IMG/VR virus record: IMGVR_UViG_3300037493_004247
Coordinates: 1 to 43,372 of that record
Strand: one strand, 5' to 3'
Length of the DNA: 43,372 bases
Source: a virus
In this document: piece after piece, positions 1,385 through 25,407 of the stretch
How the letters are laid out: each line of letters opens with the position of its first letter
How positions within the stretch are numbered: position 1 is the first letter of the stretch
Translations under genes and position numbers: made by a program
The notes under the pieces: model-generated
The model's database searches: none
The model's input: only the letters and a program-made list of their open reading frames with translations
What the model was told of the DNA's origin: nothing

Positions 1385-2959
1385 ATGGCTTTAACCGTCA
1401 CAGTCACTCCCGGCAAACAGTTCGCGGCCACCGAGACGATCACGAACGCGAAGCTCAACCAGCTCGGCCAGCCGACCTTCACGGTCACCGGCACCGTCGC
1501 CACCGCCGACCTGACGGATTCCGTCGTGACGTCGGCGAAGACGGTGGCGGGCGCTCACTTCTATACGGCGTCTGTCACTGGCCCGGTGGCCGGTGCCTAC
1601 ACGCTCACGCTCGCGGGTTCGCCTGCGTTGGCGGATGGGATGGTGGTGGCGTTCAAGGCGAACGCCAACGGCGTGCCGGATGCGTCGCTGGGCATCCGCC
1701 TCATCGCTGGAGGTGGCACGAAGAAGCTGTTCAAGAACCGGACGGAGGCACTGGTGGCGGGTGACATCGTGGCGGGCCAAATCATCGAGGCCCGCTACGA
1801 CACGGCGGGCGACGGCGGTGCGGGTGCGTGGCAGATGACGAGCCACACGAGCAACTGGGAGGCGTATTACACCGCGACCGCTACGGGCACCAATGCCTAC
1901 ACGCTGACGCTCACGCCGCCGGCCAGCTATCCCCTCACGCTCTCGGACCTCGATGGGCGGCGCATCCGGTTCAAGGTGCCGAACACCAACACCGGAGCCT
2001 GCACGGTGGCAATCACCATCGGCGGCACGGTGCTGACGGCCAAGAACCTCTACAAAAATTTCAACCAGCCGCTCATCGCGGGCGACCTGCGGCAGTATCA
2101 GATGGCGGAGATCGTCTATGAGGCCAACGCCACCGTCAGCACGGACGCCTTTCAACTGCTCAGTGCGGTGGGTAACCCGACGTCCGACAGTGCCATTATC
2201 GGTTTGTCTCGGGGGCTGGTGATCGAGAATCAGGCGGCGAGTCCCGACTCCAAGGTGACGGTGACGGCGGATGAGGTGGTGGTCCGCAACGCTGCGGGGA
2301 TCAACTACTCCGCGCAGGCAGTGAGCCTCACGATTGACATGGGGGCCACGGCGGGCAACCCGAACGCGCTGGACACGGGTGCGGAGGCGCTCTCCACCTG
2401 GTATTACATCTGGGTCATCTACAACGGGACCACGGTGGCCGGGCTGTTCAGCCTCTCGGCGACGGCGCCCACGCTGCCGACCGGCTACACGCACAAGGCG
2501 CTCGTGGGGCAGGTGCGCAATGACGGCAGCTTGAACTTCGTGCGCATGTTTCAGGCGGGCCGCGATGTGTCCTTCACCTCCACCAACATCTTCACCGCCA
2601 AGGTGGCAACGGCGGGCGACACTTACGAGGTGCTGGCGGGTGCGGACCTGCTCAATTTTCGGGCAGCGGTGCCGCCCACGGCGAGGTTCTGTTCCGGTGT
2701 GCTGGGTGCCAGTACCACGGCGGACGCCTGCCGCCACGGCATCTGCGCGACCAACTCGGACGGCACCGTCAACATCACGCAGTTCGTAGGCGAGGTGCTG
2801 ATGAACCAGAACGGCGCCGCCGGAACCTTGATCGGCGGCTTCGGGTCGTGCGAGCCCTTCCGGGTGCCGGTGCGCAACGGGGCTGGCTCCATCATCCAAT
2901 GGAAGGCCAGCACTATTGGCATTCTTAGTCGTCTGAACGTGTCGGGCTACACTTGTTAA
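1385..2959 (+). CDS. Tail fibre / receptor-binding-like protein, 524 aa
   Basis: A likely surface fibre. Residues about 60-150 and 155-265 are two related modules, each with an AYTLTL strand, an FK.N segment, a GG..L+KN segment and a LIAGD/LVAGDI turn before a Gln-rich strand, so one module was duplicated. The C-terminal half (from about residue 275) has a beta-rich TWYYIWVIYNGTT..LFSLSA pattern often seen in fibre tips. There is no coiled coil and no enzyme motif. The 33-nt leader has no Shine-Dalgarno sequence and consists of short ACTACTC/CAACTA repeats. The gene follows the nozzle and precedes the ejection proteins. The fibre role is inferred from position and composition. Confidence 0.55.
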   Translation: MALTVTVTPGKQFAATETITNAKLNQLGQPTFTVTGTVATADLTDSVVTSAKTVAGAHFYTASVTGPVAGAYTLTLAGSPALADGMVVAFKANANGVPDASLGIRLIAGGGTKKLFKNRTEALVAGDIVAGQIIEARYDTAGDGGAGAWQMTSHTSNWEAYYTATATGTNAYTLTLTPPASYPLTLSDLDGRRIRFKVPNTNTGACTVAITIGGTVLTAKNLYKNFNQPLIAGDLRQYQMAEIVYEANATVSTDAFQLLSAVGNPTSDSAIIGLSRGLVIENQAASPDSKVTVTADEVVVRNAAGINYSAQAVSLTIDMGATAGNPNALDTGAEALSTWYYIWVIYNGTTVAGLFSLSATAPTLPTGYTHKALVGQVRNDGSLNFVRMFQAGRDVSFTSTNIFTAKVATAGDTYEVLAGADLLNFRAAVPPTARFCSGVLGASTTADACRHGICATNSDGTVNITQFVGEVLMNQNGAAGTLIGGFGSCEPFRVPVRNGAGSIIQWKASTIGILSRLNVSGYTC

Positions 2960-2962
2960 ATT

Positions 2963-4147
2963 ATGGCTGAATTATCTGATTTCTACGGCGGCGGCGGGCA
3001 GGAGAATGCGATTGATTACCGACTGCCGGATCTCCCGACTCCGCCGCCAGCGCAATACAAGACGTCCGCTGGCGTGCCCTTGCAGGGAATTCTGGATAAG
3101 GATCCGGTGAGCAGGATGATCAACAAGATCTTCGGCTTCGGTCAGAAGAAGCGGCGCGTCAACAAGACGCAGAGCGCGATCAACAAATACAACTCGTTCA
3201 TTCAGGCGGAATACGAGGCGCAGCAGCGGTTCCAGCCTTTTGAGAACGCGCTGGAGCGGCAATCGGCCAGGAACACCTCCGCGCTTTACGAGGACATCCT
3301 CGGGCCGTCCGCCAACCGGCTGCACGCGAGGGCGAATGCAGAGAGTCGCTTCGCTGATTTGCAGGACTACACCAAGCTCGGGTCAGAGTTCACCCGTGCC
3401 CACACGGCGGCAGCGGAGGCGGACCCGCTGGTGGCCGGTCTGCGCCGGTCCGCGATGGAGGATGTGGCGCTGGGCTCAGACATGGACCCCATCGAGCTGC
3501 GCAAGGCGCAACAGCTCGCGCGGATGAACCGCACGGGCGGCTTCGGGCAGGGCTCAGAGAACGACATGATGCGCGAGGCGCTGGCCCTGCTCACGCATGG
3601 CGACCAGCTTCGCGGCAGCCGGATGCAGCGGGCCACGAGCGTCTTGCAGGGCACAGGCGGCACGGGGGTGGATTCCTTCCTCGGCATCACGGGCCGTCCC
3701 TCGGCAGCACCGGGCTTTGCACAGAACGCCTTCGGTCAGTCCATGCAGGAATCGCAATACAGCGGCGTGCCCAAGGGCTACGCTACCGACTTGCTCAACC
3801 AATATCAGGCCAACAAGACGAACGCGGCCAACAACAAGTCCGCTCTCATCGGCGCAGGCATCGGTGCCATCGGCAGCATCGGCGGCGGGGCGATGAAGAT
3901 GACGTGCTGGGTGGCTCGGGAGGTCTTCGGGGCGGATAATCCGAAGTGGCTCCAGTTCCGCAACTGGCTGTTGCTGGATGGGCCGGTGTGGTTCATGCGG
4001 CTCTACGTGATGCACGGCCCGGCGTGGGCCGCGTGGTTGCATGAGCATCCCTGGGCAAAGCCGCCCGTGCGCCTGTGGATGGAGTCGCGCATCCGAGCCT
4101 TTCTGAAACGTCGCAACGTCAACCGCAACGCAGCTTACGAACTTTAA
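2963..4147 (+). CDS. Probable internal virion/ejection protein with a glycine-zipper and CWVAREVFG C-terminal module, 394 aa
   Basis: The first 280 residues are helical and Gln/Ala/Arg rich. At about 295-312 lies a small-residue stretch (ALIGAGIGAIGSIGGGA) able to form a membrane-inserting glycine zipper. Directly after it, from Cys315, is a compact module CWVAREVFG..NPKWLQFRNWLLL with many Trp residues. From memory, similar modules end other phage virion proteins, but I cannot name a family. This make-up and the place before two further internal-type proteins suggest a protein ejected with the DNA that helps form the envelope channel, comparable in role to T7 gp14. The leader ends TTAAATT-ATG and has no Shine-Dalgarno sequence. 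Confidence 0.5.
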   Translation: MAELSDFYGGGGQENAIDYRLPDLPTPPPAQYKTSAGVPLQGILDKDPVSRMINKIFGFGQKKRRVNKTQSAINKYNSFIQAEYEAQQRFQPFENALERQSARNTSALYEDILGPSANRLHARANAESRFADLQDYTKLGSEFTRAHTAAAEADPLVAGLRRSAMEDVALGSDMDPIELRKAQQLARMNRTGGFGQGSENDMMREALALLTHGDQLRGSRMQRATSVLQGTGGTGVDSFLGITGRPSAAPGFAQNAFGQSMQESQYSGVPKGYATDLLNQYQANKTNAANNKSALIGAGIGAIGSIGGGAMKMTCWVAREVFGADNPKWLQFRNWLLLDGPVWFMRLYVMHGPAWAAWLHEHPWAKPPVRLWMESRIRAFLKRRNVNRNAAYEL

Positions 4148-5167: not shown

Positions 5168-8100
5168 ATGCCAACCATTGTCCAGATGCCGGATGGGGTC
5201 GAACTCGAATACCCGGACGGGATGAGCAATGCCGCCATGCTGTCGGCCACGCGCAAGTATCACGCCCAGCAGAAGGCTGAGATCAGCGCGGCTTACGACA
5301 CGGGGGTAAGACCCAGCGCCCTCGTCAGCAAGCAGGCGCAGGACATGATGCCGGATTCCATCCGGGCCACCATCGATAGGGCCACGCCCCCGGCGCTCCA
5401 GCAGAAGGTCACGCAGGACGCGCAGCGCGGGCTCGGGCCGGTGTATGAGCGCAACCGTCTCGAAGCCGCCCAGCAGGAGGCGAGGGATGAGGGCGCCAAC
5501 GCCGAGGCGGATGAGGAAGCGACTGATTTCATGGACCAGTTCGTGGTGCGACCCTTCGCGTCCACGGCCGAGAACCCGCTGGGTGGATTCGGCACGGCGG
5601 CAATGCCGCTGGGGGCACTGTTCAACGCGGCGGGAGAGGTGGCCGCGAATACGACGGATGACTTTCTCAACAACCGCCCCGCGCTGGACCGCTACATGTA
5701 TGGCGACCCGCTCCCGCAGACCAACAACGTGGTGAAGCAGGGGTTGTTGCAGGCGGCCCATGCGGTGCCGGTGATCGTGGGTGGCACGCTCTTGGCGTCG
5801 CAGGGCGTGCCTGCGCCGCTGGCCTTTGGCGCGCTGATGGGCGCTTCCACCTTCGCGGCCACAGAGGGCGACATCCCGCTGGCGCTGGAATCCGCTGCGC
5901 TGGGTGCCGTCATCCCTGGCGTGGGCGATGTGGGTCGCCACGTCGTCGTCGATGCGCTGGCGGGCGGCGTGCGTCGGGGTTCCTTGAGCGGTGGTCGGAC
6001 GATGGCGCATAAGGTGATGGAAGCCTTGGGGGCGCAGACGACCATTCAGGCGCTCATGGAGGGCATGAACTTGCCTGCCTATGTATCGGCGTCGGAGGGG
6101 GAGCGGACGGATATGTTCATCAGGAACATCATCGGCAACACGGCGCTGGCTGGCATGGAGGTGCCGGGACTCCTTAGCCGCCGCGCGAGCGGCACGCAGG
6201 GCAAGGTCGGGACGCATACGCTGGTAACCGCGCAGGCTGGCGAGGTGTTGATGGGTGTCCTCAACGACCCCGCCATGCTCAAGGAGATGCGCATCCGTGC
6301 CGATGACGCGGCCCGCTCTGCGCTGGACCCGAATGCTCTTCATGCGCGTCCCGGTCGCTTTCAGGAAATCATCAAACAGCCGCCTGAATTGCAGGAAGTC
6401 CCGGCAGAGCTGCGGGCATTTAAGGGCGCGATTGATGGGGATGTCGTGACCCCTGTGACCGAGCCCGAGCCGCCAGTGAAGGTGGCACCGGAGACACCTG
6501 TTCAGCCGAAGCAGTTCGAGGATCGTCTTTCTCCGACGGACTCCTTAGCTGTAATGACCGAGACAGCCACCCCTTCGAGTGCCGTCAGCAGGGTCTCCAA
6601 AATCATCAACGATGCTGGGAAAGAGGTTTACTCAATTACCTACACGCTCGATGGTGGTACATACCAGGGGTATTCCGACAATCCGATTTGGGAAGGTCAC
6701 CCCGGCTACTTGGGTGAATCCAAACATTACGCGAAAGAGTTTGCGGCAAAGCGCGCCAAGGCCAAGCCGCCCGAGCCCGGTGAATACGACCGGGAATCAC
6801 CCGAGGGACTGCTGGCGGTGGAAGCGATGCGTGACCACCTGACCACGCGGGGCTATGAGGCCAGCGAGGATGCAATTCAGTTAGCTGCCGAGTCTCACTG
6901 GCTGAATGGCAGGATTCTGGACCTCCGAAGTGAGAGGAAGCCCACCGAGGAATTGGTCAACCGGAGGAAGGAACTGGACCGGCAGGTTCACAAGATTCTG
7001 AACGAACTGAACCCGCCCGAGTTCGAGGTGGGGACCGAGATTGGGATGCGCAGCGGCTGGCCGGAAATGCCGACCCGTCGCGTGCGCATCACCTCGACCC
7101 ACTTCGATGAGATCAGCGGGCGGCAATACCGTTACGATTACATCGACGGGGGACCGGAGGTTCACCCGAAGTCTGTCCGAGCGGAGAAGCTCATCCGCGA
7201 TGGGGAGAGGGATTGGGCCACCGAGCTGCGGGCGGCAGAGGTGGCGGCGGGCGCTGCCAGTGGAAAGTTGCAGAGTCTTGGCCCGTGGAGCAGGCAGAAG
7301 AGCCAGTCGGCGCGCGCCGTATGGCAGAAGGCGAAACTGGACGCCGCCGACGCGGAGCGCAGTTGGCTGATGCTCAAATCTCAGCACGAGGCGTCCAAGA
7401 AGCCCGAACCCCCGAAGGGCGAAGGCAAGGATGCGAAGCAGTTTGGGGTGCGTGAGTTGCTCGATTACATGGAGGAACCGCGAGGCAACGCGTTCCCGGT
7501 GCCCGAGGGCGACGCCGATGCGTTCATCTCGGCTGCCGAGCGTGCGGGCTGGAAGCGTGACGGCGACGTGTGGCGCAAGGGTGGACGTGAGTTCTTCATC
7601 TTCTCGCAGGGCAAGCTGGCCGGGCCGATTGTGCAATGGTCGGCTCGGGAGACTACGGGCAAGGTCACGGATAACGAGCTGAAGGCGCGGGACATCGAAG
7701 CGAAGCTGAAGGATTACGAAGACACGCTGGCATCGGCGTCGCGCAGTCTGGAGGATGGCCGGTATGATAATGGGCAGCCGGTGTCTAAAGAGGGCAAGGC
7801 TCGGCTCAAGGAGGAGATCAAGGCGATGTCGTCCGTCACCGAAACCTTGCGTGACCAGTGGTGGCAAGCGTGGGTGGGCGAGACGCCGACGGCGTGGGAG
7901 GTCCAATGGATTCAAAACGGCCGCCGGGTCTTTGAAGGGCGCTATGGAACCAAGGACAAGGCTTACGCAGTGGCGGAGAAGAAGCAGGGCAGCGGCACCG
8001 TGGTAAAGTATGAGGTGGTCCCTTGGTTTGCCAAGAACCACCGGGAAGCCATTCACGCGGCCAAGGCCATGGATGAGGGCCGGGTCGAGGAGCTGGAGGG

Positions 8101-11100
8101 GAAGAACTACTGGCTGGACGAGAACAACCTGGTATATCAGCCGCCCAGCACGCAGGGCAGCCTGCCACGCAATCAATCGGAGGCTTCGCGCCGGTTTTCC
8201 ACGGCGGAACTTTCGGACATGGACGACGCGTTGCGGTTCACGCCTGACGTGCCGAAGGGGCAGCCCTTTCCCGATTGGCCCACCGACCGCAGGGAGCAGA
8301 TGGCTATCGAGGGCGCGGTGCGGGATGCGCTCAAACAGAAGGCGGGAGAAGGGGAACGGGTCTTCGAGGTGAAGGGGGCCAAGAACCGGGGGCCGTCGGC
8401 TCGCGTGGATGTGCGCCGCCTCTCCGATGGCCGCGCCCAGGTGCGCACCTCGCTGGATACCAACGAGGGCGGCTACTCCGGGCCGTTCATGACGTTTCCC
8501 AGCTTTGAGGCCGCGAAGGCGTACGGCTTGGCGGATGTGCGCAAGATGGCGGAGTCCATGCACCAGCGCAAAGACACCAAGAGTGTGCGGAAGGTGCTGG
8601 AGAATGTGCTCGCCGCGCTGGACAAGGCCGAGGCGAAAGCGCCAGCGCCTGAAGTGGGTTCTGCGGGCAAGGAGGAGATGCCGCGTGATTACAGCATCAC
8701 CTCCATTCGTGACACGTTTCAACTTTCCACCGAGCAGGCGACTGCCATCGATGCCCTCTTGAGTGCGGTCGGGTTGGATACCGGTCGTATCCGCTTCGGC
8801 GAAGAGGGAGTCTGGGCTTCGGATGATGCGCTCTTGCAGATGGAGAACATCCTTCTCGGGAGGGAGAAGGTGCCCCAGTTCGAGAAGATCGATGACGTCT
8901 TCAAGTTCGTCGATAAATACGGCAAGAAGCACCATGCGGTCCCCGCTGGGCTGGACTTGTCCACCAGCAAGGGCCGGTCGGCGGCGGTGGATGCCATCGT
9001 GAAACACACGGTCCTTGAGCTGGACGCGTGGAAGAAGGTCGTCAAGAACTACCGACCGTTCTACACGTCGGACATCATCGAGCGCACCAATCCCGCGCTG
9101 CAAAAGTGGGCGCAGGGGAAATTCGGCAGGAAGCTGACCACCGCCGAGGTGGACTACATTCACTTGCTGTCTTCGCTGGCGTCGGGCAGGACGATCCCCT
9201 CGGTGGACACCCAGTGGGGGATGCACCTCTTCGAGGAATACATCAGGACCGGGGAGGCTACGGGGCTGGCGGATAAGCGTCGTCAATTATACGGCTATCC
9301 TCCCGGCGTGACGGACTCGAACCAGAAGAAACCGCTCTTCATCGATGCCAAGACCGGGAAGGACACATTCAAGGGGGCAGGCAACAAGCCCAAGTATGAC
9401 CCTGACCCGAATGCGAAACCCAAGATCACCGCGACCTTCTACCTGTCGGGGTTGCAGAGGTTCAATGCCATCCTCGGTCACTTCGGCGGGGACTTGCCTA
9501 AGACCATCAAGTGGATGGGCACGCGGCATACCTTCGATGAGATTCGCGCCGTCATCGGCGACAAGGCAGCCAAGTCGCTGGAGGAGCATGAGAATCTGGA
9601 CAAGGGCGGGCTGACCTTTGGGACGTTTACCCTGGGCAACGACGCGAAGATGGGTTCCTACATCCTGAACCGCTGGCAGAAGCTCGGCACCATCACGAAG
9701 GACATGTGGGTGGCGAGGACGACGGCCCGCTGGTTCCGTGAGCCGAGCGAGAGCGGGAAGCCGTGGGCGCTCACCAAGGACGGAATCGTGAAGCGCAAGA
9801 TCCTCGATGAGGCGTGGGGGATCGTGGCTAAAAGGTTGGGGGTTGACCCGGCCAATATTCAGGAGATGATGTGGGATGCTGAGAAGCAAATCTACGGCAA
9901 GTTCGGCCCGTTCGGCGACGGTGCCTACACGTCGGACGCGAGGGAGCTGGAGACTTCGCGACGTGCGAACGATAACGCCCCGGCAGTGGGCGCAAAGGAT
10001 ACGGCGACTGCTGGAGTCGGTAAGTCCAAAAAGCTGAACCCGCTCTATCAGGGTGGTGGTGACGGCGGCAAGCCGAAGGGCTCCACCGAGTTTGGTGATG
10101 CAGGCGATGCTCTTCTGAGGGGGTTTGCTGACGCGGACATCTCCACCGCCCTCCATGAGGTCGGTCATGTCATTCGGCGGTTCCTCCTCGACCGGTCCAT
10201 CCTACCGGAGAACCGGCTGGGAATCACTGACGCGGACATCGCGACAACGGAGCAGTGGGCTGGGGCGAAGGATGGGGTCTGGACCCGGCCAGCGGAGGAG
10301 AAGTTCGCGCGCGGACTGGAGAACTACATGCGGACCGGCAAGGCGCCGAACCCTGGCATGGCTGGGCTCTTCGAGAAGTTCGCGGGCTGGCTGACGAACA
10401 TTTACAAGAAGCTGAAGGGGAGCGCGGTCGATGTGGAGGTCAGCCCCGCGATGCGCGAGGTGTTCGACCGTCTGCTCACGCGGACCGAGCGGCTCAAGCA
10501 GGGTGGACGGATGGATGGACAGGAACGCCCGACCTCGATGTCGGGACGTGATGCCACGCCGCCGGCCGAAGGGGAGCCTGACTTGGTGCTGCTGGGTTGC
10601 GGCAAGGAGAAGGTCGGGGGCACGGCCATGGTGCCTGCTGCGGACCTCTACATCGGACCTCTCTTCAAGGCCCGCCTCAAGTTTGCGGACGGGCAGAGTC
10701 GCCCGTGGATGATCCTCTCGGCGGCGCACGGTGTCGTGGAGCCGGGCAAGAAGCTGGCATCTTACGACGTGGAGATGAGCAAGTTGTCCCCGACGGCCAA
10801 GGAGGCTTGGCGGGACTCGGTGCGAGCCCGCGTGCTGGAATACTTCGATGGGCGCTCGTCTGCCATCGGGAAGACTATCGAGGTTCATGCCGGTGCCGAT
10901 TATGTGGCGCAGTTGGAGAAGGCGCTGACCGGGCTGGGTGTGACCGTGCTGCCGGTGTTCAAGGGCAAGGGCATCGGCGAGCAGTTGAGCGGGTATTCCA
11001 AGGGCGAGGCGAGGGCGAAGGCGCCAGCAGGCGGACCGGAGTCCACCGTCTCGCAAGCGTTGGCCGATGGGAAGATTGCGCCGTTCTGGGGAGCTGTGAC

Positions 11101-14100
11101 CGGTGACCGGCCGATGATTGTCGTCAAAATCGGCACTGGGCATCTGCCGTTTTACCGCTCGGCGATGGGCACGGGTGGCAACAAGAAGGCTGGCGAGTGG
11201 CAGCCGTTCTTCGGCGTCGGGAACAATGGCTGGCTGATCAAGGGCGATGGGCAGGACATCGCTGGCGGCTACGGCAGTCACGAAGTCAAGGCCACCCAGA
11301 AGTGGCTGAACGAGAATTTCAACTGGGAGCACGCCCGCGACTTGGACCTGGTTTACAACGCGCACCGCTCGCCGCTCAACGCCATAGGCAAACCGGGCAG
11401 CGTCTTTGCCGCGCTCAAGCAGCTCGTCGGCGAAGGTCAGTTTGAGGACCTGCGGCACGATACTGCGGGCAAGTCGCACGAGCACATCATGCGCGTGCTG
11501 GAGTCGGTCGGCATCCGTCCCGGTGCGGGGAAGCCGGGAAAGTCCACCGCTGGCAGCAGTTTGGCGGAGCAACTGGCGGCGGCAGAGGCTGACATGGTCC
11601 GGCTCGACACCGAGCTGGCGGCCGCGAGGGCGGAGGCGGATGAGGTCAAGGCGTCTGGAGCGGACTTTGCCGCCAACGTCAACCGTGAGGCTGTGGTCAA
11701 AGACCTGATGCGCCAGATCAAGGCGGCTTCCGACCGGCGCGCTGCTCTGGATGCCGACGTGGCGCTGGAAACGTGGAGGGCGTCTGTGCCGCGCACGGCG
11801 CCGCCGGATGGTGACCCGAAGGTCACCGCCAAAATCCTCAAGGTGCAGAAGAAGTTTCTGCTCGAGGCGACCGAGCAGGCGCTCGCGGAGGCGGGCGAGG
11901 ACATGGCGGACCGTCCGAAGCAGATCACTATCGAGGTGCCGGGCGACGGCACGTTCACCGTCCAGAACACAGAGAAGACCCTGGGCGCGTTCCATGCACT
12001 GGTGAAGGCACGGTTCTCTACCTCACCCAACGGCGACGGCGGCTCGGGCAACAAGAGCGTGGACGGCAAGCCGGTCCCCAAGCCCCCGAAGAAGGGGAAG
12101 GATGCGCTCAAGAACGTGATGGAGGTCGCTGGCACGTTCGTGGGCGAGGACGACGGGCGCCCGGTGCTGTGGAACTCGATGTCCAACGGCAGCGAGGTGG
12201 TTGCCACGGACGGGAGGATGATGATCCGCATCGACACGCCGCTGGCGCCCGGCACCCCAGACAACCCGGTGTATCACGATGCGAAGGGCAAGCCGGTCAC
12301 GCCGAAGTTCATCGCGGTGAAGTATCCTGATTACAAGCATGTGTGGCCGGTGGGTCCGACGCTGGCTCGCGGCGGCGTGGAGTTGGCGGACCTCTGGCAC
12401 ATCGTCCGACAGGCAAAGGTGTTCCGGGACTTGTCCGTGGACGCGGCTGACCGGGCCGGTGAGCGTATGCTGCTGGTGGTGAATCCAGACGGCTCGATGG
12501 GCGGAGCCATGAACATCGGCGAGGACTCGTTCAGTCACAACATCAGCGTGCAGTCCAAGCCGCTGGGGCATTTCAACCCGGACTACATTCAGGCCGCGCT
12601 GGAAGCGGCGGGCAAGCTGGGCGATACGAAGCTGGATATTTATGTCGGTGGCGAGGCTGGGCCGATTCTGATTCAGGGCAAGCAGTTCGGGATGGTCGCC
12701 ATGGCGTTGGGTAACGGCGTCGATTCGGTGGGTGCGACGAGCGTGTTGCGTGAGCGGTTGGCCGCGTTTGCGGAATCGGCAGGCAAGGCGGAGCATCCCC
12801 GGCTGACCTACGGCGATGCGCCAAACCGAGGCGCTGAGTCGGCGGGCAAGGGCAAGGGTAAGGGTAAGGGCAAGAAGGGCGCTGCGGCTTCACCGTGGGA
12901 GGGTTCTGGTGAGGGCGATCTGGGTGGAGGGCTGGGTGCCGGTCCGACGCCTGCCCCTGCGGATAATCCTCGGTTCTCGGCGTTTGATGCTCTCCCGATG
13001 GAGCTGCCGGAAGCGGTGCGATTCGCCCGCGAGATGCTCGATGGCAAGTATCCCAAGGTGCTCGAAATCATCAAAGCTCTGGGCGGGCGGGCGGCTGGGT
13101 TGTTCACCTACACGCAGGGTGAGGGTGGGAAGGGCGAGATCCACCTCAAGGCGGACCTCGTGCGGGACCACTTCAAGGAATTCTTCGATGGCACGGCGGA
13201 GGCGCGTTACAAGCAGGAGGCGGAGGATTACGCGCGCGCCACTGCGGAGCACGGCGAGGATTGGCGGGAGATCGCGAAGGAGCGGCTCACTTACCTGGTC
13301 AACGAGGCGCTGGAGAAGAAGAAGGCTGAGAACCCGGCGTGGGCGCTCAAAGTCATCTGGCACGAGATCGGTCACCTCGTGGACTGGCTGCCTGAACGCA
13401 TGATCCACGGACGTGGCAACCTCTTCGGGCGCATCGCGAGCCTGAAGGAATACTGGAAGACCACGCTACCCATTGACCCGTTGCGCCCCTCGGGAAAGCC
13501 ATTGTCTGCGGCGGACCGCACCAAGCTGTGGGCGGAGGCGGATAAGCAGATCCGTGATGAGATCGGCCCAATCTCCGAAATCGTCGAGACGATCATGGTC
13601 GAGGAACCGATCCTGCGACTCGTCGGTATCACGACGGAGGACGTCAAGAATCTGCTGGGCATGGATGCCCGCGAGAAGACGCCCGAGCTTTACCGGTGGT
13701 TTGCCGAGCAACCGGCGCAGGTGAAGAAGGACATTCTCAAGAAGGCGCTGCGCGGACTGCTCGATGAGCGGCTCAAGGCGATGGGCCGAATGGAACAGGT
13801 CGGCACGAAGACCACCCAGCGCACGGTGCGCAAGAAGCAGGGGCGCGAGCCTACGCAGGAGGAGGTCCGCGCCCGGTTCAAGCAGTTGTTCCGCGAGGAG
13901 ATGACGAAGCGCAATCTTGCCGATTACGAGACGCTGAAGGCGGAGCTGGAGCCCATGATCGCGTGGTGGCGTGGCACCGCGACGATGGAGCCCTACTTCA
14001 GGACTTCCATTGAGATGTATGCGGAGGCTTTCAGCGTGCTGATGAACAACCCGGCGGCGGTGGCCCAGCGGGCGCCGCTATACTACCGGCTCCTGTTCAA

Positions 14101-16624
14101 TCACATGGACGCCAAGCCTGCCGTGAAGCAGTTGTATCGAGAGATCCAAGACCAGGTCCGCCGTGGCAGTGTCATGGGTGAGCGGGTGGGCGCCCTCCGC
14201 GACATGTGGGCGGGCGATGATGCACGCTCGATGAAGCGGTGGCGCGATTCGTGGCGCACCTCGGCCCGCGACTTCTTCGACAACGTCTCCTATCAGATTG
14301 ATCGGCGCTTCGGTCCCATCTTTCGGGCGGCGAAGGGCTCGGCCCGCGAGGGGCGGGTGCGGGATGCGGTCGGCAACTTCCTCTACCGGGCGTCCGAGCA
14401 TGAGCTTTTCCTCAACCGCGTGAACCGTGACGTGAGCCGCCCGCTGGTGTCCGCGAACTTGGACTGGACCGATCTGGGTGAATACATGTTCCACCAGCGC
14501 ATCATCGCGGACCGGTTCGCGCTCTTTAACCCGCAGGGCTGGACCTCCAAGAACTCGCTGGAACGGCTGGCGGAGCTGCGCTCCCAGCTCGGCCCGGACC
14601 GGTGGCGGGTGCTTGAGAATGCGCAGCGGGAGTTTCGTCGGGTGTATGAGGCCGAGGTGCTCCCGGTGCTGCGCAAGGCGCGCATGTTCTCCCCTGAGAC
14701 GCAGAAGCTCATCGAAGACAAGGTGTGGTATGCGACTTTCGCGAGCACGCGGGGCGAGGTGAAGGAGGGTATCGAGCGGGTGCTGGAGGACTCCGTCGGG
14801 GCAGCGGTGGGCGCGCGCATTTACCGGCAGATCGGCAACCTCGGTGAAATCAAGCAACCGGCCACCGCGACGGTGCTCAAGGCGCTGAGTCTCATCTCCG
14901 CAGCGGAGCGGAATATCGCCCGGCGCGAGGTCGTGCAGATGTTGCTGGCGACGGACCCGTCGAGCATCATGCCCGCGAAGACGCGCTGGAACGGCAAGCG
15001 CATGGAGGTCGTCGAGCGGGAGACGGCCAAAGTGGGCACGGTGATCTTCATGCACGAGGGGAAGGCGAAAGGCTTTTACGTGCGCCGCAGTGTGAGTGAG
15101 TCGCTGAATTACGCCTCCCCCATCGAGAACAAGCTGCTCTCGGGCGTCGTGTCCGCGAACGGGTGGCTGAAGGGGCTCTACACCCAGCTCAACTACGGGT
15201 TTTGGCCGGTCAACTTTGCGATTGATACGGCGAGTTTCATGTTGAACATGCCGGGCGCGTTGTCGCCCGTGGGCTGGGCGCTGGCATTGCCGCGTGCGGT
15301 GCGGGCGGCTCACGCCTCGGTCAATGGGCGGGTCGCCAATGAGTATGCCGATGCGGCGCTCCGTCGGCGGATGCTGATCTCCAGGGCGGACCCTCGCGGC
15401 GTGTGGTCGAGCGTGGACAACGAGTTTGACCTCAAGGTGGCCTCGTACGGCATGGACCCGGCGGCGTGGGGCGCGCAAGCCAACAAGGTCGGGGCACTGG
15501 TCAAGCTCTGGAACCACTATCGCGAATTTGGATCGAAGATGGAGCGCGTGAATAAGATCGCGGGCATGATCTATCTCGACGAGCACCACCCGGCGATGCC
15601 TGAGTGGAAGAAGCGCGAGATCGTGCGCGAGCGGGCAGGCTCGCCGGATTTCCTCCAGCGCGGCGCGAGCAACGCGACCATTGACTTGCTGATGATGTTC
15701 TTCAACCCGTGGAAGGAGGGGATCAGGTCCACCATGAAAGCGGCGGGCGAGAACCCCTTCAGCTACGGCACAAAGTTCGCCGCTGCCGTGGTGCTGCCGT
15801 CTCTCCTTCAGGCGGCGGCAACGCAGGGGTTGCTGGGCGACGACCTGAAGCGGAAGTATCGCAGCATCCCCGACTACGACCTCTCGAACTATTACTGCGT
15901 GCCGCTGTTCTGGCAGGATGCGGAGGCGGGCAAGGTGGCTTACCTCCGCTTGCCGCTCCCCGAGCCGATGCGGATCGGGCATGCGCTGACCTACAAAGTG
16001 GCGACCGGTCGTGGTATGGGGTACGGGTCCTTCATGGGCGGCCAGGTGCCCGGCGCGAACTCGATGTATGGGGTGCTGGCGGCGTGGCACCAGTATGCGG
16101 TGATGGGTCACAACCCTTACGACAGCCATCGAGGGGCGTACGTGCTCGATGAGGCGACGTTCGAGGCGGGCGGCACCGCAGCGAATGTGGCGCTGGGCAA
16201 GTGGACGTGGAACCAACTGGGGGGCTCGATTCTGGGACGCTTTCAGAATACTGCGCTGGAGAATCCGCCCGCCTCGGCGGGCGAGGAATTCTTGGCGGCG
16301 CCCATCGTCAGCAATTCACTGGGCCGGTGGCTCAAGGTCAGCTCCCGAGGCATCGACGACGCAGACCGGCAACTGACGGAGCCGGTGCGCCAGCATCGCG
16401 CCGAGGTGCGGCTGGGCGTGCGGAAGATCATGCTAAAGCTGTTCGCTGATGCGGCACTGACACCCGCCGAGCGGGTGCTGATGCGCGAGCCTTACGCCAT
16501 GGAGTATCTGCTGCGCACGATGCCCGAGGTCGCGGCTGGCCGGGAGTTTCCGATCATGCGGAGGCTCGGGCACGCCGATTCCCGCGAGGGCAAGGCGGCG
16601 ATTCTGATGGGGAGTCCGCAGTAA
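5168..16624 (+). CDS. Giant polyvalent virion protein (3818 aa) with two HExxH metalloprotease motifs, a DUF6884-like and an LPD38-like region
   Basis: More than a quarter of the genome. Order: an N-terminal MPDGVELEYPDG segment of the kind that begins many ejected virion proteins; a hydrophobic Ala/Gly region at about 190-270; long charged linkers; a first zinc-protease motif HEVGH at 1663-1667 in the context often seen in polyvalent proteins; a DUF6884-like region at about 1804-1925 (LGCGKEK, then DLYIGPLF, then WMILSAAHGV); a module at about 1975-2110 with WQPFFGVGNNGWLIKG; a coiled coil at about 2133-2200; a possible sliding-clamp-like stretch from about 2310 (EVVATDGRM); a second metalloprotease HEIGH at 2732-2736 with a probable third ligand Glu2953 in YAEAFSVLMN; and an LPD38-like region at about 3510-3700 (FFNPWKEG, then VPLFW and RLPLPEPMRIG). 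Such proteins are typically packaged and injected to act early in the cell. Domain names are from memory of motifs, not from a search. No RNA polymerase motifs were seen. Confidence 0.75.
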   Translation: MPTIVQMPDGVELEYPDGMSNAAMLSATRKYHAQQKAEISAAYDTGVRPSALVSKQAQDMMPDSIRATIDRATPPALQQKVTQDAQRGLGPVYERNRLEAAQQEARDEGANAEADEEATDFMDQFVVRPFASTAENPLGGFGTAAMPLGALFNAAGEVAANTTDDFLNNRPALDRYMYGDPLPQTNNVVKQGLLQAAHAVPVIVGGTLLASQGVPAPLAFGALMGASTFAATEGDIPLALESAALGAVIPGVGDVGRHVVVDALAGGVRRGSLSGGRTMAHKVMEALGAQTTIQALMEGMNLPAYVSASEGERTDMFIRNIIGNTALAGMEVPGLLSRRASGTQGKVGTHTLVTAQAGEVLMGVLNDPAMLKEMRIRADDAARSALDPNALHARPGRFQEIIKQPPELQEVPAELRAFKGAIDGDVVTPVTEPEPPVKVAPETPVQPKQFEDRLSPTDSLAVMTETATPSSAVSRVSKIINDAGKEVYSITYTLDGGTYQGYSDNPIWEGHPGYLGESKHYAKEFAAKRAKAKPPEPGEYDRESPEGLLAVEAMRDHLTTRGYEASEDAIQLAAESHWLNGRILDLRSERKPTEELVNRRKELDRQVHKILNELNPPEFEVGTEIGMRSGWPEMPTRRVRITSTHFDEISGRQYRYDYIDGGPEVHPKSVRAEKLIRDGERDWATELRAAEVAAGAASGKLQSLGPWSRQKSQSARAVWQKAKLDAADAERSWLMLKSQHEASKKPEPPKGEGKDAKQFGVRELLDYMEEPRGNAFPVPEGDADAFISAAERAGWKRDGDVWRKGGREFFIFSQGKLAGPIVQWSARETTGKVTDNELKARDIEAKLKDYEDTLASASRSLEDGRYDNGQPVSKEGKARLKEEIKAMSSVTETLRDQWWQAWVGETPTAWEVQWIQNGRRVFEGRYGTKDKAYAVAEKKQGSGTVVKYEVVPWFAKNHREAIHAAKAMDEGRVEELEGKNYWLDENNLVYQPPSTQGSLPRNQSEASRRFSTAELSDMDDALRFTPDVPKGQPFPDWPTDRREQMAIEGAVRDALKQKAGEGERVFEVKGAKNRGPSARVDVRRLSDGRAQVRTSLDTNEGGYSGPFMTFPSFEAAKAYGLADVRKMAESMHQRKDTKSVRKVLENVLAALDKAEAKAPAPEVGSAGKEEMPRDYSITSIRDTFQLSTEQATAIDALLSAVGLDTGRIRFGEEGVWASDDALLQMENILLGREKVPQFEKIDDVFKFVDKYGKKHHAVPAGLDLSTSKGRSAAVDAIVKHTVLELDAWKKVVKNYRPFYTSDIIERTNPALQKWAQGKFGRKLTTAEVDYIHLLSSLASGRTIPSVDTQWGMHLFEEYIRTGEATGLADKRRQLYGYPPGVTDSNQKKPLFIDAKTGKDTFKGAGNKPKYDPDPNAKPKITATFYLSGLQRFNAILGHFGGDLPKTIKWMGTRHTFDEIRAVIGDKAAKSLEEHENLDKGGLTFGTFTLGNDAKMGSYILNRWQKLGTITKDMWVARTTARWFREPSESGKPWALTKDGIVKRKILDEAWGIVAKRLGVDPANIQEMMWDAEKQIYGKFGPFGDGAYTSDARELETSRRANDNAPAVGAKDTATAGVGKSKKLNPLYQGGGDGGKPKGSTEFGDAGDALLRGFADADISTALHEVGHVIRRFLLDRSILPENRLGITDADIATTEQWAGAKDGVWTRPAEEKFARGLENYMRTGKAPNPGMAGLFEKFAGWLTNIYKKLKGSAVDVEVSPAMREVFDRLLTRTERLKQGGRMDGQERPTSMSGRDATPPAEGEPDLVLLGCGKEKVGGTAMVPAADLYIGPLFKARLKFADGQSRPWMILSAAHGVVEPGKKLASYDVEMSKLSPTAKEAWRDSVRARVLEYFDGRSSAIGKTIEVHAGADYVAQLEKALTGLGVTVLPVFKGKGIGEQLSGYSKGEARAKAPAGGPESTVSQALADGKIAPFWGAVTGDRPMIVVKIGTGHLPFYRSAMGTGGNKKAGEWQPFFGVGNNGWLIKGDGQDIAGGYGSHEVKATQKWLNENFNWEHARDLDLVYNAHRSPLNAIGKPGSVFAALKQLVGEGQFEDLRHDTAGKSHEHIMRVLESVGIRPGAGKPGKSTAGSSLAEQLAAAEADMVRLDTELAAARAEADEVKASGADFAANVNREAVVKDLMRQIKAASDRRAALDADVALETWRASVPRTAPPDGDPKVTAKILKVQKKFLLEATEQALAEAGEDMADRPKQITIEVPGDGTFTVQNTEKTLGAFHALVKARFSTSPNGDGGSGNKSVDGKPVPKPPKKGKDALKNVMEVAGTFVGEDDGRPVLWNSMSNGSEVVATDGRMMIRIDTPLAPGTPDNPVYHDAKGKPVTPKFIAVKYPDYKHVWPVGPTLARGGVELADLWHIVRQAKVFRDLSVDAADRAGERMLLVVNPDGSMGGAMNIGEDSFSHNISVQSKPLGHFNPDYIQAALEAAGKLGDTKLDIYVGGEAGPILIQGKQFGMVAMALGNGVDSVGATSVLRERLAAFAESAGKAEHPRLTYGDAPNRGAESAGKGKGKGKGKKGAAASPWEGSGEGDLGGGLGAGPTPAPADNPRFSAFDALPMELPEAVRFAREMLDGKYPKVLEIIKALGGRAAGLFTYTQGEGGKGEIHLKADLVRDHFKEFFDGTAEARYKQEAEDYARATAEHGEDWREIAKERLTYLVNEALEKKKAENPAWALKVIWHEIGHLVDWLPERMIHGRGNLFGRIASLKEYWKTTLPIDPLRPSGKPLSAADRTKLWAEADKQIRDEIGPISEIVETIMVEEPILRLVGITTEDVKNLLGMDAREKTPELYRWFAEQPAQVKKDILKKALRGLLDERLKAMGRMEQVGTKTTQRTVRKKQGREPTQEEVRARFKQLFREEMTKRNLADYETLKAELEPMIAWWRGTATMEPYFRTSIEMYAEAFSVLMNNPAAVAQRAPLYYRLLFNHMDAKPAVKQLYREIQDQVRRGSVMGERVGALRDMWAGDDARSMKRWRDSWRTSARDFFDNVSYQIDRRFGPIFRAAKGSAREGRVRDAVGNFLYRASEHELFLNRVNRDVSRPLVSANLDWTDLGEYMFHQRIIADRFALFNPQGWTSKNSLERLAELRSQLGPDRWRVLENAQREFRRVYEAEVLPVLRKARMFSPETQKLIEDKVWYATFASTRGEVKEGIERVLEDSVGAAVGARIYRQIGNLGEIKQPATATVLKALSLISAAERNIARREVVQMLLATDPSSIMPAKTRWNGKRMEVVERETAKVGTVIFMHEGKAKGFYVRRSVSESLNYASPIENKLLSGVVSANGWLKGLYTQLNYGFWPVNFAIDTASFMLNMPGALSPVGWALALPRAVRAAHASVNGRVANEYADAALRRRMLISRADPRGVWSSVDNEFDLKVASYGMDPAAWGAQANKVGALVKLWNHYREFGSKMERVNKIAGMIYLDEHHPAMPEWKKREIVRERAGSPDFLQRGASNATIDLLMMFFNPWKEGIRSTMKAAGENPFSYGTKFAAAVVLPSLLQAAATQGLLGDDLKRKYRSIPDYDLSNYYCVPLFWQDAEAGKVAYLRLPLPEPMRIGHALTYKVATGRGMGYGSFMGGQVPGANSMYGVLAAWHQYAVMGHNPYDSHRGAYVLDEATFEAGGTAANVALGKWTWNQLGGSILGRFQNTALENPPASAGEEFLAAPIVSNSLGRWLKVSSRGIDDADRQLTEPVRQHRAEVRLGVRKIMLKLFADAALTPAERVLMREPYAMEYLLRTMPEVAAGREFPIMRRLGHADSREGKAAILMGSPQ

Positions 16625-22100: not shown

Positions 22101-22831
22101 TGAAGGTGGAACTTGAACTTCTAGGGCATCCGAAATACCTCCTGCTCAAACGAGCGGTGGGTCCGCTGGCGCTCGAGTATCTGCTGCGGCTGTGGGGTCA
22201 TTGCTCCACGAACAAGCGAGGCGAGAGGTGGGCGGGGGCTACCTCGGAGTATGTCGAGACGGTTTGCAACTGGGGCGGGGTGCCCGGCAAACTGTTCCAC
22301 TCCTTGGTCGCCACCCGTCTGATTGAGGCGGCGGAAAGCGGCATCACTGTCCACGGATGGGATGAGGCCAACAGTTTCCTTGTAAAGAACTGGACCCGCA
22401 ACCCCAGCGGTGGCCCATGGGCCACCCCACGGACCCCCGCCGAGCCGCACAGCGGACCCCCTTCGGTCACCCCACGGGCAGCCCTTCTGAATGATCAGGA
22501 TGATCAGAATGATAAGAGTGAGAGTGAGGGTCAGCTCGCTCTCACTTCTCCTGCCATCCCAACCGAAGCCGAGTTTCAGGGTGCGTTCTCCGCGTCGGGC
22601 ATCCCTCCCGCCTACCTGCATCGCCAGTTCGAGCAGCTCCACGAAACGCATTGCTGGGTGACCAAACACAACCGGTTGGTCGATTGGCGCCGGGTGGTGC
22701 AGAACCGCTGGGTATCTGATCGTCACAACTGGGTTCCAGAAAAAAAACCGCCCGCCGCCCCCGGTCCTGTCAGGACTGGTGCTGATGTGCGGGCGGACAT
22801 AATGGCGGCGATTAACGGAGGTGCGGCATGA
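22100..22831 (+). CDS. Probable replication initiator/organiser protein, 243 aa
   Basis: The N-terminal domain (LLGHPKYLLLKRAVGPLALEYLLRLWGHC, then TVCNWGG.PGKLFHSLVATRLIE) has the helical winged-helix plan of phage replisome organisers such as lambda O or DnaD-like proteins. A low-complexity Pro/Ser/Asp linker follows (about 110-150). A C-terminal helical part ends VVQNRWVSDRHNW, similar to the end of DnaD/DnaT-like loaders. The linker DNA contains three 9-bp repeats and an inverted repeat, as origins inside initiator genes often do. It overlaps the primase start as ATGA. The assignment is inferred from pattern and context. Confidence 0.55.
   Translation: MKVELELLGHPKYLLLKRAVGPLALEYLLRLWGHCSTNKRGERWAGATSEYVETVCNWGGVPGKLFHSLVATRLIEAAESGITVHGWDEANSFLVKNWTRNPSGGPWATPRTPAEPHSGPPSVTPRAALLNDQDDQNDKSESEGQLALTSPAIPTEAEFQGAFSASGIPPAYLHRQFEQLHETHCWVTKHNRLVDWRRVVQNRWVSDRHNWVPEKKPPAAPGPVRTGADVRADIMAAINGGAA
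22490..22546. other. ori: Candidate replication origin inside the initiator gene
   Basis: Three head-to-tail 9-mers, AATGATCAG, GATGATCAG and AATGATAAG (22490-22516), are followed at once by an inverted repeat AGTGAGAG (22517-22524) and CTCTCACT (22539-22546). The stretch is richer in A/T than its surroundings and lies in the low-complexity linker of the presumed initiator, the same arrangement as the lambda origin in gene O. Function is inferred. Confidence 0.4.
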
Positions 22832-23781
22832 GCTACGACGCGGACAGGTTCAAGGAATTGGTGAAGGAGCGTGCTGACCTCCTTGGCTGGATTGAGCGCG
22901 ATGGGGTGGCGCTCAAGGGTGGGGGGACGGAATACAAGGGGTTGTGCCCGTTCCACCAAGAAAAAACGCCGTCCTTCACGGTGTTCAAGAAGGACGGTTC
23001 GTGGGGTTACTACTGCTACGGGTGCAGCGCGGGGGGTGACGTCTTCTCGTATGTCCAGGCACGGCGGCAGTTGGCGTTCCCTCATGCGCTCAAGTTGCTG
23101 GCGAACGAGCTGGGCTTGAGTGTGCCGGATGACCGGCTTTACCAACCGCCGCAGGTTCGGGAAGCGGTGGAGCAGGCTGCGTCGGCCGGGTGGCCGGTTG
23201 ACCGTTCGGTCGGGCGTGGAGTGTTTGACCCCAGCAAGTTCGAGCCCTTGGACGTGGGCGGGAAGGCTGGCAGGTATCTCATCGAGAAGCGCAAGCTGAC
23301 CATGGAAGTCCTGACCCGTTACCACGTCGGGCAGATGGTGGGCGGTGAGGCGTATACCTTTGCTTACAAGTGGCGGCCGGAAGGGGCAAAAAACGACCGC
23401 TTCGAGTTCTGCAAGGTCGTGAAGGTGGACCGGATTAACGGCAAGAAGGAGGAGTTTCGCGACCCCAAGGGTGGTCGGAACATCTTGTTCGGGATGACTT
23501 CCGTGGACCCAGAGGCGACGCGCCTTGTGATCTGCGAGGGCGAGATTGATGCGATGACGTGGGCGCAGGAGGGGGTCGCGGCGGTGAGCGTGCCGGGCGG
23601 CGCTGGGTATCTGGGCTGGATCGAGGTGTGTTGGGACTGGCTGGCGAGGTTCACGCACATCCACATCAGCTTCGACGAGGACCGGGCTGGCCGGGCCAAG
23701 GTCGTCGAGGTTGTGACGCGGTTGGGGATGGCGCGCACGGATATGGTGCGCCTCCCGGAGCGGGTAACTGAAACAAACTGA
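22828..23781 (+). CDS. DNA primase with CHC2 zinc finger and Toprim domain, 317 aa
   Basis: Makes RNA primers for DNA replication. The zinc finger residues are Cys40, His43, Cys63 and Cys66 (CPFHQEKTPSF, then YYCYGCSAGGDVF), the DnaG/T7 gp4 type. A middle region with primase core patterns follows. The Toprim domain at about 233-310 has its conserved acidic motifs: CEGEIDAMT, then PGGAG, then SFDEDRAG. At 317 aa it is shorter than DnaG and lacks the helicase part of T7 gp4. The helicase is the separate gene at 24196, so the fused T7-type enzyme is split here. The start overlaps the previous stop (ATGA). Confidence 0.9.
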   Translation: MSYDADRFKELVKERADLLGWIERDGVALKGGGTEYKGLCPFHQEKTPSFTVFKKDGSWGYYCYGCSAGGDVFSYVQARRQLAFPHALKLLANELGLSVPDDRLYQPPQVREAVEQAASAGWPVDRSVGRGVFDPSKFEPLDVGGKAGRYLIEKRKLTMEVLTRYHVGQMVGGEAYTFAYKWRPEGAKNDRFEFCKVVKVDRINGKKEEFRDPKGGRNILFGMTSVDPEATRLVICEGEIDAMTWAQEGVAAVSVPGGAGYLGWIEVCWDWLARFTHIHISFDEDRAGRAKVVEVVTRLGMARTDMVRLPERVTETN

Positions 23782-23792
23782 AAGGCTGAAAA

Positions 23793-24206
23793 ATGGAAAA
23801 AACTGACCGTGAGTTGAGAAGGCAGGAGTTGGAGGCTTACCTGCTGACCCCCGCAGGTGGTGATGCGCTGGAGAAGTTCGTGAGGCTGGGTATGCCTGCG
23901 GTGCCAGAGTTCGAGGGGGAGGTAATTCACAGCCCGATGGGAGGAATGCTGCTGGTGGCTGGCAAAAACTACTACGTGTCGATCCGTTTACTCATGGGCT
24001 TGGGGCCTCCCGCGACGTTCGACCTGATTGAGGACCGCCCGGAGAGTTTCGTGGATTACATGGGGTGGCTTTACGTCGAATCGCGGGCCTTGCTGACGAA
24101 ATGCAAGGGCTCGAAGAAGAGGGCGCTGGCGACGCTCATCGCGAAGATGGAAACCCTTCAAGAAAGCCGCCCCGACGGCACTGAGGAGGACTCGCGTGCG
24201 GTATAA
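23793..24206 (+). CDS. Hypothetical protein between primase and helicase, 137 aa
   Basis: Eleven bases after the primase stop, and it overlaps the helicase start by 11 bp, so it belongs to the replication unit. The protein is mostly helical with a charged N-terminus (MEKTDRELRRQELEAYLL), a beta-like centre (GEVIHSPMGGMLLVAGKNYYVSI) and a Lys/Glu C-terminal helix. No motif is recognised. It could be a small helicase or primase partner. Confidence 0.6.
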   Translation: MEKTDRELRRQELEAYLLTPAGGDALEKFVRLGMPAVPEFEGEVIHSPMGGMLLVAGKNYYVSIRLLMGLGPPATFDLIEDRPESFVDYMGWLYVESRALLTKCKGSKKRALATLIAKMETLQESRPDGTEEDSRAV

Positions 24207-25407
24207 AGACGCCAACGAGATGCTGATGGAGGGCGTGGGCTGGCTGTTGCTGGCGTGCCTGGAGGCTGACGCGACGGAGGTGCTGCGCCCGGACCACTTG
24301 AAGGACATCTTCGACTTCGAGGAGGAGATATGGGCAAAGTTTCATCCTGCCGATGACGCTGCCCTCGGGCTCCGCCTCCCGTGGGGCAACTCGTGCGGCA
24401 GTTCGCTGCCGTTCCGGTTCCGCCATGGCGAGGTGACGGTGTGGACGGGCTACAACAAGCACGGGAAGAGCGAGGTGCTCAACCATTGCACGATTGACCT
24501 GTGCTGGCAGGGCGAAAAAGCCCTCGTTTGCTCGCTGGAAATTCAGGCGCCGGAAACTTACCGCAAGCTGATCCGCATGGCGATGGGCAGGCGGGACGTG
24601 TGTGCCTTGGAAGACCGGGAACAGTTCCGCGCGCGGTGTCTGGTGCCGCTGGGCAAGCGCGTCTGGGTGTATGACCATGTCGGCACCGCTCAGTTGGAGG
24701 ACGTGTTCAATGTCATGCTCTACTCTTACCAGCGTTACGGCGTCCGCCAGTTCGTCCTGGACTCGTTCATGCGCTTCGATGGGCTGGATGGCGAGGGGCA
24801 GGACATCTGGAACCGGCAGAAGGGTTTCATGGATAAACTCTCGACCTTCGCGGCGAAATACGGCGTCCACGTTCATCTGGTGGCGCACTCCAAAAAGCCC
24901 AGCAAGGGCGGCGAGGCTACGATCCCCCGGCGGTATGACGTGATGGGGAGCGCCTACATCAGCAACGTGCCGAACAACGTGATCGTGATCTGGCGGAACC
25001 GGGCCAAGCAGGATGCGCTGGAGGAGATCTTCCAGAGATGCGAGGAGATGTTCCGCAGGAGTCGGCCGACGGCCAAAATGCCGCCGTGGCGCCGCCTGAT
25101 GGGGGGTCCGCCGCCCGAGGACCGTCTCGATTTGAAAGTCATCTGGAACACCATGATTGGCGTGGTGGAGCAGTTGCCGCCAGACGAGAAGGCGCGTTTC
25201 TATGAGCTGGTGGAGGAGCACGATGCCTACTTTATCGTGGATGCGCAGCGCGGTGGCGATGGGGACTGCCCGGCTCGCCACCTGTGGTTTCACGTCGATA
25301 GCCTGCAATTCCTTGAGGCCAGCGCCTACAAGGTGAAGGACGAGCGGGCTCGCCCGCGTGCTTATGCGGGTGAGCCGGTCCCGTCAGAAGATGGGGAGGT
25401 CTTGTGA
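24196..25407 (+). CDS. Replicative helicase / RecA-fold ATPase (DnaB-like), 403 aa
   Basis: Unwinds the fork with the primase above. Walker A is GYNKHGKSE (residues 85-93), Walker B is in RQFVLDSFM near 185-192, and a RecA-type third motif HVHLVAHSKKP is near 225, as in DnaB and the T7 gp4 helicase domain. The usual N-terminal DnaB domain is missing; only about 80 residues precede the ATPase core. The start is GTG at 24196 with GAGGAGGA six bases upstream. An insertion with many charged residues follows the core (about 275-330), unlike standard DnaB, and the tail is beta-like. Confidence 0.85.
   Translation: MRYKDANEMLMEGVGWLLLACLEADATEVLRPDHLKDIFDFEEEIWAKFHPADDAALGLRLPWGNSCGSSLPFRFRHGEVTVWTGYNKHGKSEVLNHCTIDLCWQGEKALVCSLEIQAPETYRKLIRMAMGRRDVCALEDREQFRARCLVPLGKRVWVYDHVGTAQLEDVFNVMLYSYQRYGVRQFVLDSFMRFDGLDGEGQDIWNRQKGFMDKLSTFAAKYGVHVHLVAHSKKPSKGGEATIPRRYDVMGSAYISNVPNNVIVIWRNRAKQDALEEIFQRCEEMFRRSRPTAKMPPWRRLMGGPPPEDRLDLKVIWNTMIGVVEQLPPDEKARFYELVEEHDAYFIVDAQRGGDGDCPARHLWFHVDSLQFLEASAYKVKDERARPRAYAGEPVPSEDGEVL

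Follow-up and report, generated by a model that had tools for sequence, protein, structure and literature searches.

A giant, probably virion-borne phage protein combines a conserved zincin-containing C-terminal block with variable cargo that includes a mini sliding clamp

Proteins ejected by phages bring with them RNA polymerase, peptidoglycan hydrolases and modifying enzymes. Among the closest described systems are the polyvalent proteins of phages and conjugative elements, in which zincin-like proteases are combined with unrelated modules and for which self-processing after injection has been proposed (Iyer et al. 2017, PMC5512222). Another is gp50 of phage N4, an ejected RNA polymerase of ~3,500 residues whose enzyme part is followed by an HExxH domain and by ~1,100 residues of helical C-terminal sequence (PMC12633501), and for which a resemblance to lethal factor was reported by Iyer et al. 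(PMC5512222). In the open-licence literature we met no ejected phage protein described as carrying a replication clamp; the word ‘clamp’ is absent from the main text of Iyer et al. (PMC5512222), whereas the protein described here, P0001, has one. As a kind, the polyvalent ejection protein is thus already known, and what appears to be new is the clamp cargo.

P0001 is encoded in a virus record from IMG/VR (IMGVR_UViG_3300037493_004247), which was analysed over its whole length of 43,372 nucleotides (hereafter the window). The ends of the record carry a 127-bp repeat and one gene is continuous across the join, which indicates a complete circular map of 43,245 bp. The source of this genome is a temperate podovirus-like phage. 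Family searches matched a portal, a major head protein, a terminase-type protein, a primase and a helicase, while megablast of the window against phages returned no match and no DNA polymerase was recognised among the large genes scanned. The initial annotation had assigned over a quarter of the genome to one protein, and P0001 indeed takes up 11,457 of the 43,245 unique bases (26%) in an uninterrupted frame (Table 1). Elsewhere in the window, a Calcineurin-like/PhoD-type phosphoesterase gene lies within the structural region (37480–38814), and a putative tail fibre gene (1385–2959) has a sub-threshold match to the second domain of Mtd from phage BPP-1.

The P0001 gene starts 4 nt after the tail genes, the last of which ends at 5164, and is adjoined downstream by an integrase gene. 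Members of its C-terminal family are found in structural cassettes, and among the relatives are some with matches to virion structural, minor head or endolysin families. Considering gene position and relatives together, P0001 is probably a virion protein that is injected with the DNA. The neighbouring integrase would also fit a multifunctional intracellular protein, expressed late or from the prophage and absent from the virion, but the tight junction with the tail genes and the structural associations of the relatives make this highly improbable.

Table 1 Features of P0001 and its genomic context (positions refer to the window)
Feature	Residues (aa)	Position (nt)	Strand	Basis or remarks
Giant ORF P0001	1-3818	5168..16624	+	Open for 3818 codons, 3818 aa
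N-terminal cargo	1-1615	5168..10012	+	No recognised family; strong hydrophobic segment aa 192-210 (hydrophobicity scan)
MP1 zincin-like domain	1632-1777	10061..10498	+	HExxH 1663-1667 (10154-10168); candidate third ligand E1711 or E1718 (10298-10321)
DUF6884 (YaaA-like)	1807-1944	10586..10999	+	PF21818; CxxxK (1811) and LSAxxG (1850) intact
Coiled-coil-like helix	2125-2201	11540..11770	+	Weak matches to unrelated helical families
Mini sliding clamp module	~2306-2545 (~240 aa)	12083..12802	+	Profile, pairwise and tblastn matches
Gly/Lys/Pro-rich linker	2546-2605	12803..12982	+	Composition; pLDDT below 50 in model
MP2 zincin domain	2609-3000	12992..14167	+	HEIGH 2732-2736 (13361-13375); candidate third ligand E2949 (14012-14014)
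C-terminal block	3001-3818	14168..16621	+	Shared with Baldr and more than 100 phage contigs
Site homologous to relatives’ sub-threshold LPD38 matches	3562-3663	15851..16156	+	Mapped from relatives
Primase and DnaB-type helicase genes		22828..25407	+	Genome context

Like the polyvalent proteins of Iyer et al., P0001 is giant and carries at least one lethal-factor-like zincin next to unrelated enzymes or binding modules. Its single polypeptide joins MP1, DUF6884, the clamp and MP2, i.e., several catalytic or binding domains of unrelated kinds, and the mark of a zincin-like protease, HExxH with a Glu in a following helix, is represented by an invariant HExGH and a later Glu; homology thereby supports a polyvalent architecture with zincin-type domains, DUF6884 and a clamp. 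The two annotated HExxH motifs are present at aa 1663 and 2732 (a shuffled protein of the same composition has at least two in 0.3% of cases). Unlike the published examples, P0001 is not reached by the Pfam LPD38 model, and neither MP1 nor MP2 had a Pfam match. Several sequence and profile searches with aa 1–1615 gave no significant family match. The coiled coil of the initial annotation survives as a putative coiled-coil-like helix further downstream, suggested by weak, mutually unrelated family matches.

MP1 matched phrog_9880 (E 1.3e-26) and is common to Bbp10 of Bordetella phage BPP-1 and to hundreds of other viral stretches, so that, judged by its sequence, it is a widespread phage polyvalent-protein domain of the Bbp10 type. 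Both Bbp10 and CP2 ORF24 share MP1 with P0001 (33–39% identity), whereas their C-terminal part differs from the MP2 block, no clamp was found in them, and Bbp10 additionally carries LPD22 and PBECR1. MP1 and MP2 occurred together in no other protein examined (MP1 loci were read 5 kb to each side). Both His and the Glu of HExxH, as well as two downstream Glu, are invariant in a 63-row structure alignment of MP1. A number of homologues (L164, L166, L172, L174, L189, L194 and L196) keep the domain and have lost HExxH, which suggests that they are inactive or structural versions.

MP2 and the region that follows it, which is probably a long helical region, form the conserved part of P0001, which recurs in more than 110 phage contigs of IMG/VR. 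The last ~1,200 aa align with ORF20 of Pelagibacter phage Baldr (EXVC032P) over 1,062 aa (23% identity, E 3e-45), meaning that the C-terminal ~1,060 aa are homologous and include the HExGH..D.LP zincin (HEIGHLVDWLP in P0001). The Baldr gene sits between the tail tube and tail fibre genes, and its product differs from P0001 in its length (2,329 aa), in its N-terminal part and in lacking the clamp and DUF6884. Close relatives were found neither by searching viral contigs with the single sequence of MP2 or of the clamp nor with a two-sequence profile (A1). Relatives were instead collected with a degenerate DNA pattern for HE.GHL.D.LP, which yielded 117 IMG/VR stretches; nearly all of these hits lie in giant ORFs, with homology to P0001 restricted to the C-terminal block. 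An alignment of 62 rows shows no variation at the motif positions H, E, G, H, D, L and P, nor at a Glu further downstream. An N-terminal packaging tag of the FPDG type was considered and rejected, as few members have one.

The AlphaFold2 model of aa ~2602–3010 mostly has a pLDDT of 84–98. Foldseek alone gave no significant match for the MP2 model in the PDB. When the model was compared with the PDB by VIA-align, the best 34 rows were all zincins of the lethal-factor, PPEP and Certhrax types, with Z up to 7.8, and unrelated structures appeared from 4.8; MP2 is thus predicted to adopt a lethal-factor/PPEP-type zincin core fold, a resemblance of fold which does not imply activity. For the MP1 model, the first 8 rows were all zincins, with Z of 5.0 or less. 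The claim of two metalloproteases therefore stands unevenly: homology supports both as zincin-type domains, while a zincin fold is well supported by structure prediction for MP2 and weakly for MP1. At the level of the model, the MP2 result repeats in another clade the lethal-factor resemblance of N4 gp50. P0001 and gp50 are also alike in size (about 3,500 aa for gp50) and in their order of a cargo enzyme, an HExxH domain and a C-terminal part that is helical in gp50 and probably so in P0001, and they differ in that gp50 contains an RNA polymerase and P0001 none. Sequence comparison revealed no profile similarity between P0001 and the C-terminal region of gp50 (C1/C2).

The LPD38-like region of the initial annotation fared less well. 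LPD38 (PF18857) exceeded the curated cut-off in none of 50 related records, and neither P0001 nor the rest of the window had any match. Sub-threshold matches were present in 7 of the 50, and the three that were mapped correspond to one site near the C-terminus of P0001, which leaves the assignment plausible but not established. By contrast, the DUF6884-like region proved solid, matching PF21818 above the Pfam cut-off (E 2.4e-25) with both motifs kept. Pfam’s authors link DUF6884 to lesion recognition and to YaaA, which binds DNA (PMC11701544). It usually occurs standalone or in other contexts (in other phages, within unrelated small genes), whereas here it is fused; among 44 related records, P0001 alone has it.

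What had been noted as a possible clamp-like stretch was confirmed as a sliding clamp module. Matches to PHROG families of processivity factors for DNA polymerase fall within aa ~2310–2490, and the sole tblastn match below E 1 among 50,697 phage records was gp47 of Bacillus phage Silence (E 0.06), a 230-aa protein annotated as ‘DNA polymerase III subunit beta’, which aligned with the module in a pairwise comparison at E 7e-9 over 206 aa and itself matches solved beta clamps at 3e-6. A profile built from five standalone phage mini-clamps, with P0001 excluded, scored 37.4 bits on the clamp segment and 29 bits on the whole of P0001, compared to a maximum of 1.2 bits among 500 shuffles. With a profile of three divergent full-length clamps, P0001 was indistinguishable from shuffles, and the Pfam DnaN models had no match in P0001. 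On these similarities the module is a sliding clamp of the phage mini-clamp subgroup: the standalone members (Silence gp47, BCJA1c gp19 and that of a Staphylococcus phage SPbeta-like) are collinear over ~200 aa and have the same shortened layout, although they are separate genes of ~218–230 aa, whereas the P0001 clamp lies within a larger, putative virion protein.

In the alignment with E. coli DnaN, no counterpart is present for domain I or for the second half of domain II; the module therefore cannot build the standard three-domain ring, and the three complete domains in a dimeric ring that define DnaN are not present. Ten of the 18 residues of the peptide-binding pocket of the E. coli clamp (listed in PMC11139829) are identical in the module (R152, L155, T172, G174, P242, V247, N320, Y323, V360 and M362), a count which is no independent test since these residues are also conserved alignment anchors; three other pocket residues have changed (H175 to R, R176 to M and P363 to A). 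Unless it forms oligomers, a module that keeps the pocket and lacks the ring-forming parts is more likely to bind peptides than to encircle DNA in the classical way.

We thus propose that P0001 is the largest ejection protein of this phage, with a constant MP2 block and exchangeable cargo that includes a mini-clamp recruiting host polymerase, a reading whose chances we regard as about even. P0001 would be packaged in the particle and ejected with the DNA, as its position, its relatives and N4 gp50 suggest. The C-terminal ~1,200 aa (MP2 and the long, probably helical block) would be the constant delivery and processing part, and MP1, DUF6884 and the mini-clamp in front of it the exchangeable cargo. 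The zincins might then release or trim cargo domains, possibly by self-cleavage, or cut a host protein. Most likely, the mini-clamp would sit at the entering DNA and engage the tails by which Pol III alpha and other host proteins bind their clamp, and the host replication machinery would be drawn to a genome that has a primase and a helicase and no recognised polymerase. The Pol III of the host is normally supplied with a clamp of its own, which makes the need for a phage-borne one questionable; against the proposal as a whole stand the low pLDDT (below 50) of the clamp part of the structure model, the three changed pocket residues and the absence of the clamp from the closest relatives.

The retention of a pocket without ring-forming parts would also fit a decoy that occupies clamp-interacting tails and so keeps host repair, restart or defence proteins off the phage DNA or stalls host replication, with DUF6884 and the zincins as further takeover cargo. 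Published polyvalent proteins have been interpreted as conflict effectors (PMC5512222), and the cargo of relatives includes DarB-like antirestriction, ART and methyltransferase families. Such a decoy has no known defence target, however, and standalone phage mini-clamps are annotated as replication genes, that of Silence adjoining genes for ssDNA-annealing and ssDNA-binding proteins. A role in replication is at least as strongly indicated by the clamp as one in counter-defence; we rank recruitment of host polymerase first and the decoy, which we consider possible but doubtful, second.

The variability of the cargo is apparent from the proteins of 17 relatives, which include RadC, ART-PolyVal, radical SAM, SNF2, methyltransferase, inorganic pyrophosphatase, DarB-like and endolysin/lysozyme families. 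Among 148 records, phrog_947 was found inside a giant ORF in three (P0001 counted) and as a separate gene in two others. One of these giant ORFs (G034, locus L127; 1690–11754, minus strand; 3355 aa) contains an almost complete DnaN, a sub-threshold LPD38 match and the C-terminal block family (its clamp row was left out of the structure alignments, where it is misaligned); in the third giant protein, G016, a match to the last half of DnaN lies beside a methyltransferase and an SNF2 helicase. Many relatives (L002, L017, L035, L065, L077 and others) have a short unit ending in LMPxR, 100–150 aa upstream of HE.GH, which resembles the last half-domain of DnaN and could represent either what is left of a clamp or a small fold of its own. 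We do not claim these units of Baldr-type phages as clamps, since a match to phrog_947, over its last 50 positions, was obtained for that of G016 alone.

No clamp was found in the closest relatives of P0001, which marks it as an optional module. Since DUF6884 is missing there as well, and since the loss of HExxH from some MP1 homologues means that modules do decay in such proteins, clamp and DUF6884 could be inactive relics or structural spacers left by recombination in an otherwise ordinary gp16-like ejection protein. We think this unlikely, as no stop interrupts the frame and the DUF6884 motifs, both HExxH and a large part of the clamp pocket have been preserved.

In favour of an ejection protein whose clamp recruits host polymerase we count the conserved block, the variable cargo, the MP2 fold, the clamp similarity, the DnaN of G034, the lack of a recognised polymerase and the N4 precedent. 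We also suggest, more tentatively, that some phages inject a clamp module by which host DNA polymerase is tethered at, or diverted to, the incoming genome before phage genes are expressed, i.e., a replication starter analogous to the virion RNA polymerase of N4. If this is true, the clamp would arrive ready-made in the virion and be at work before the phage genome is transcribed, and such ‘jump-started replication’ is directly testable. More broadly, MP2 and the helical region form a widespread constant block in front of which very different cargo is swapped, and this provides a handle for listing the proteins that podoviruses may inject.
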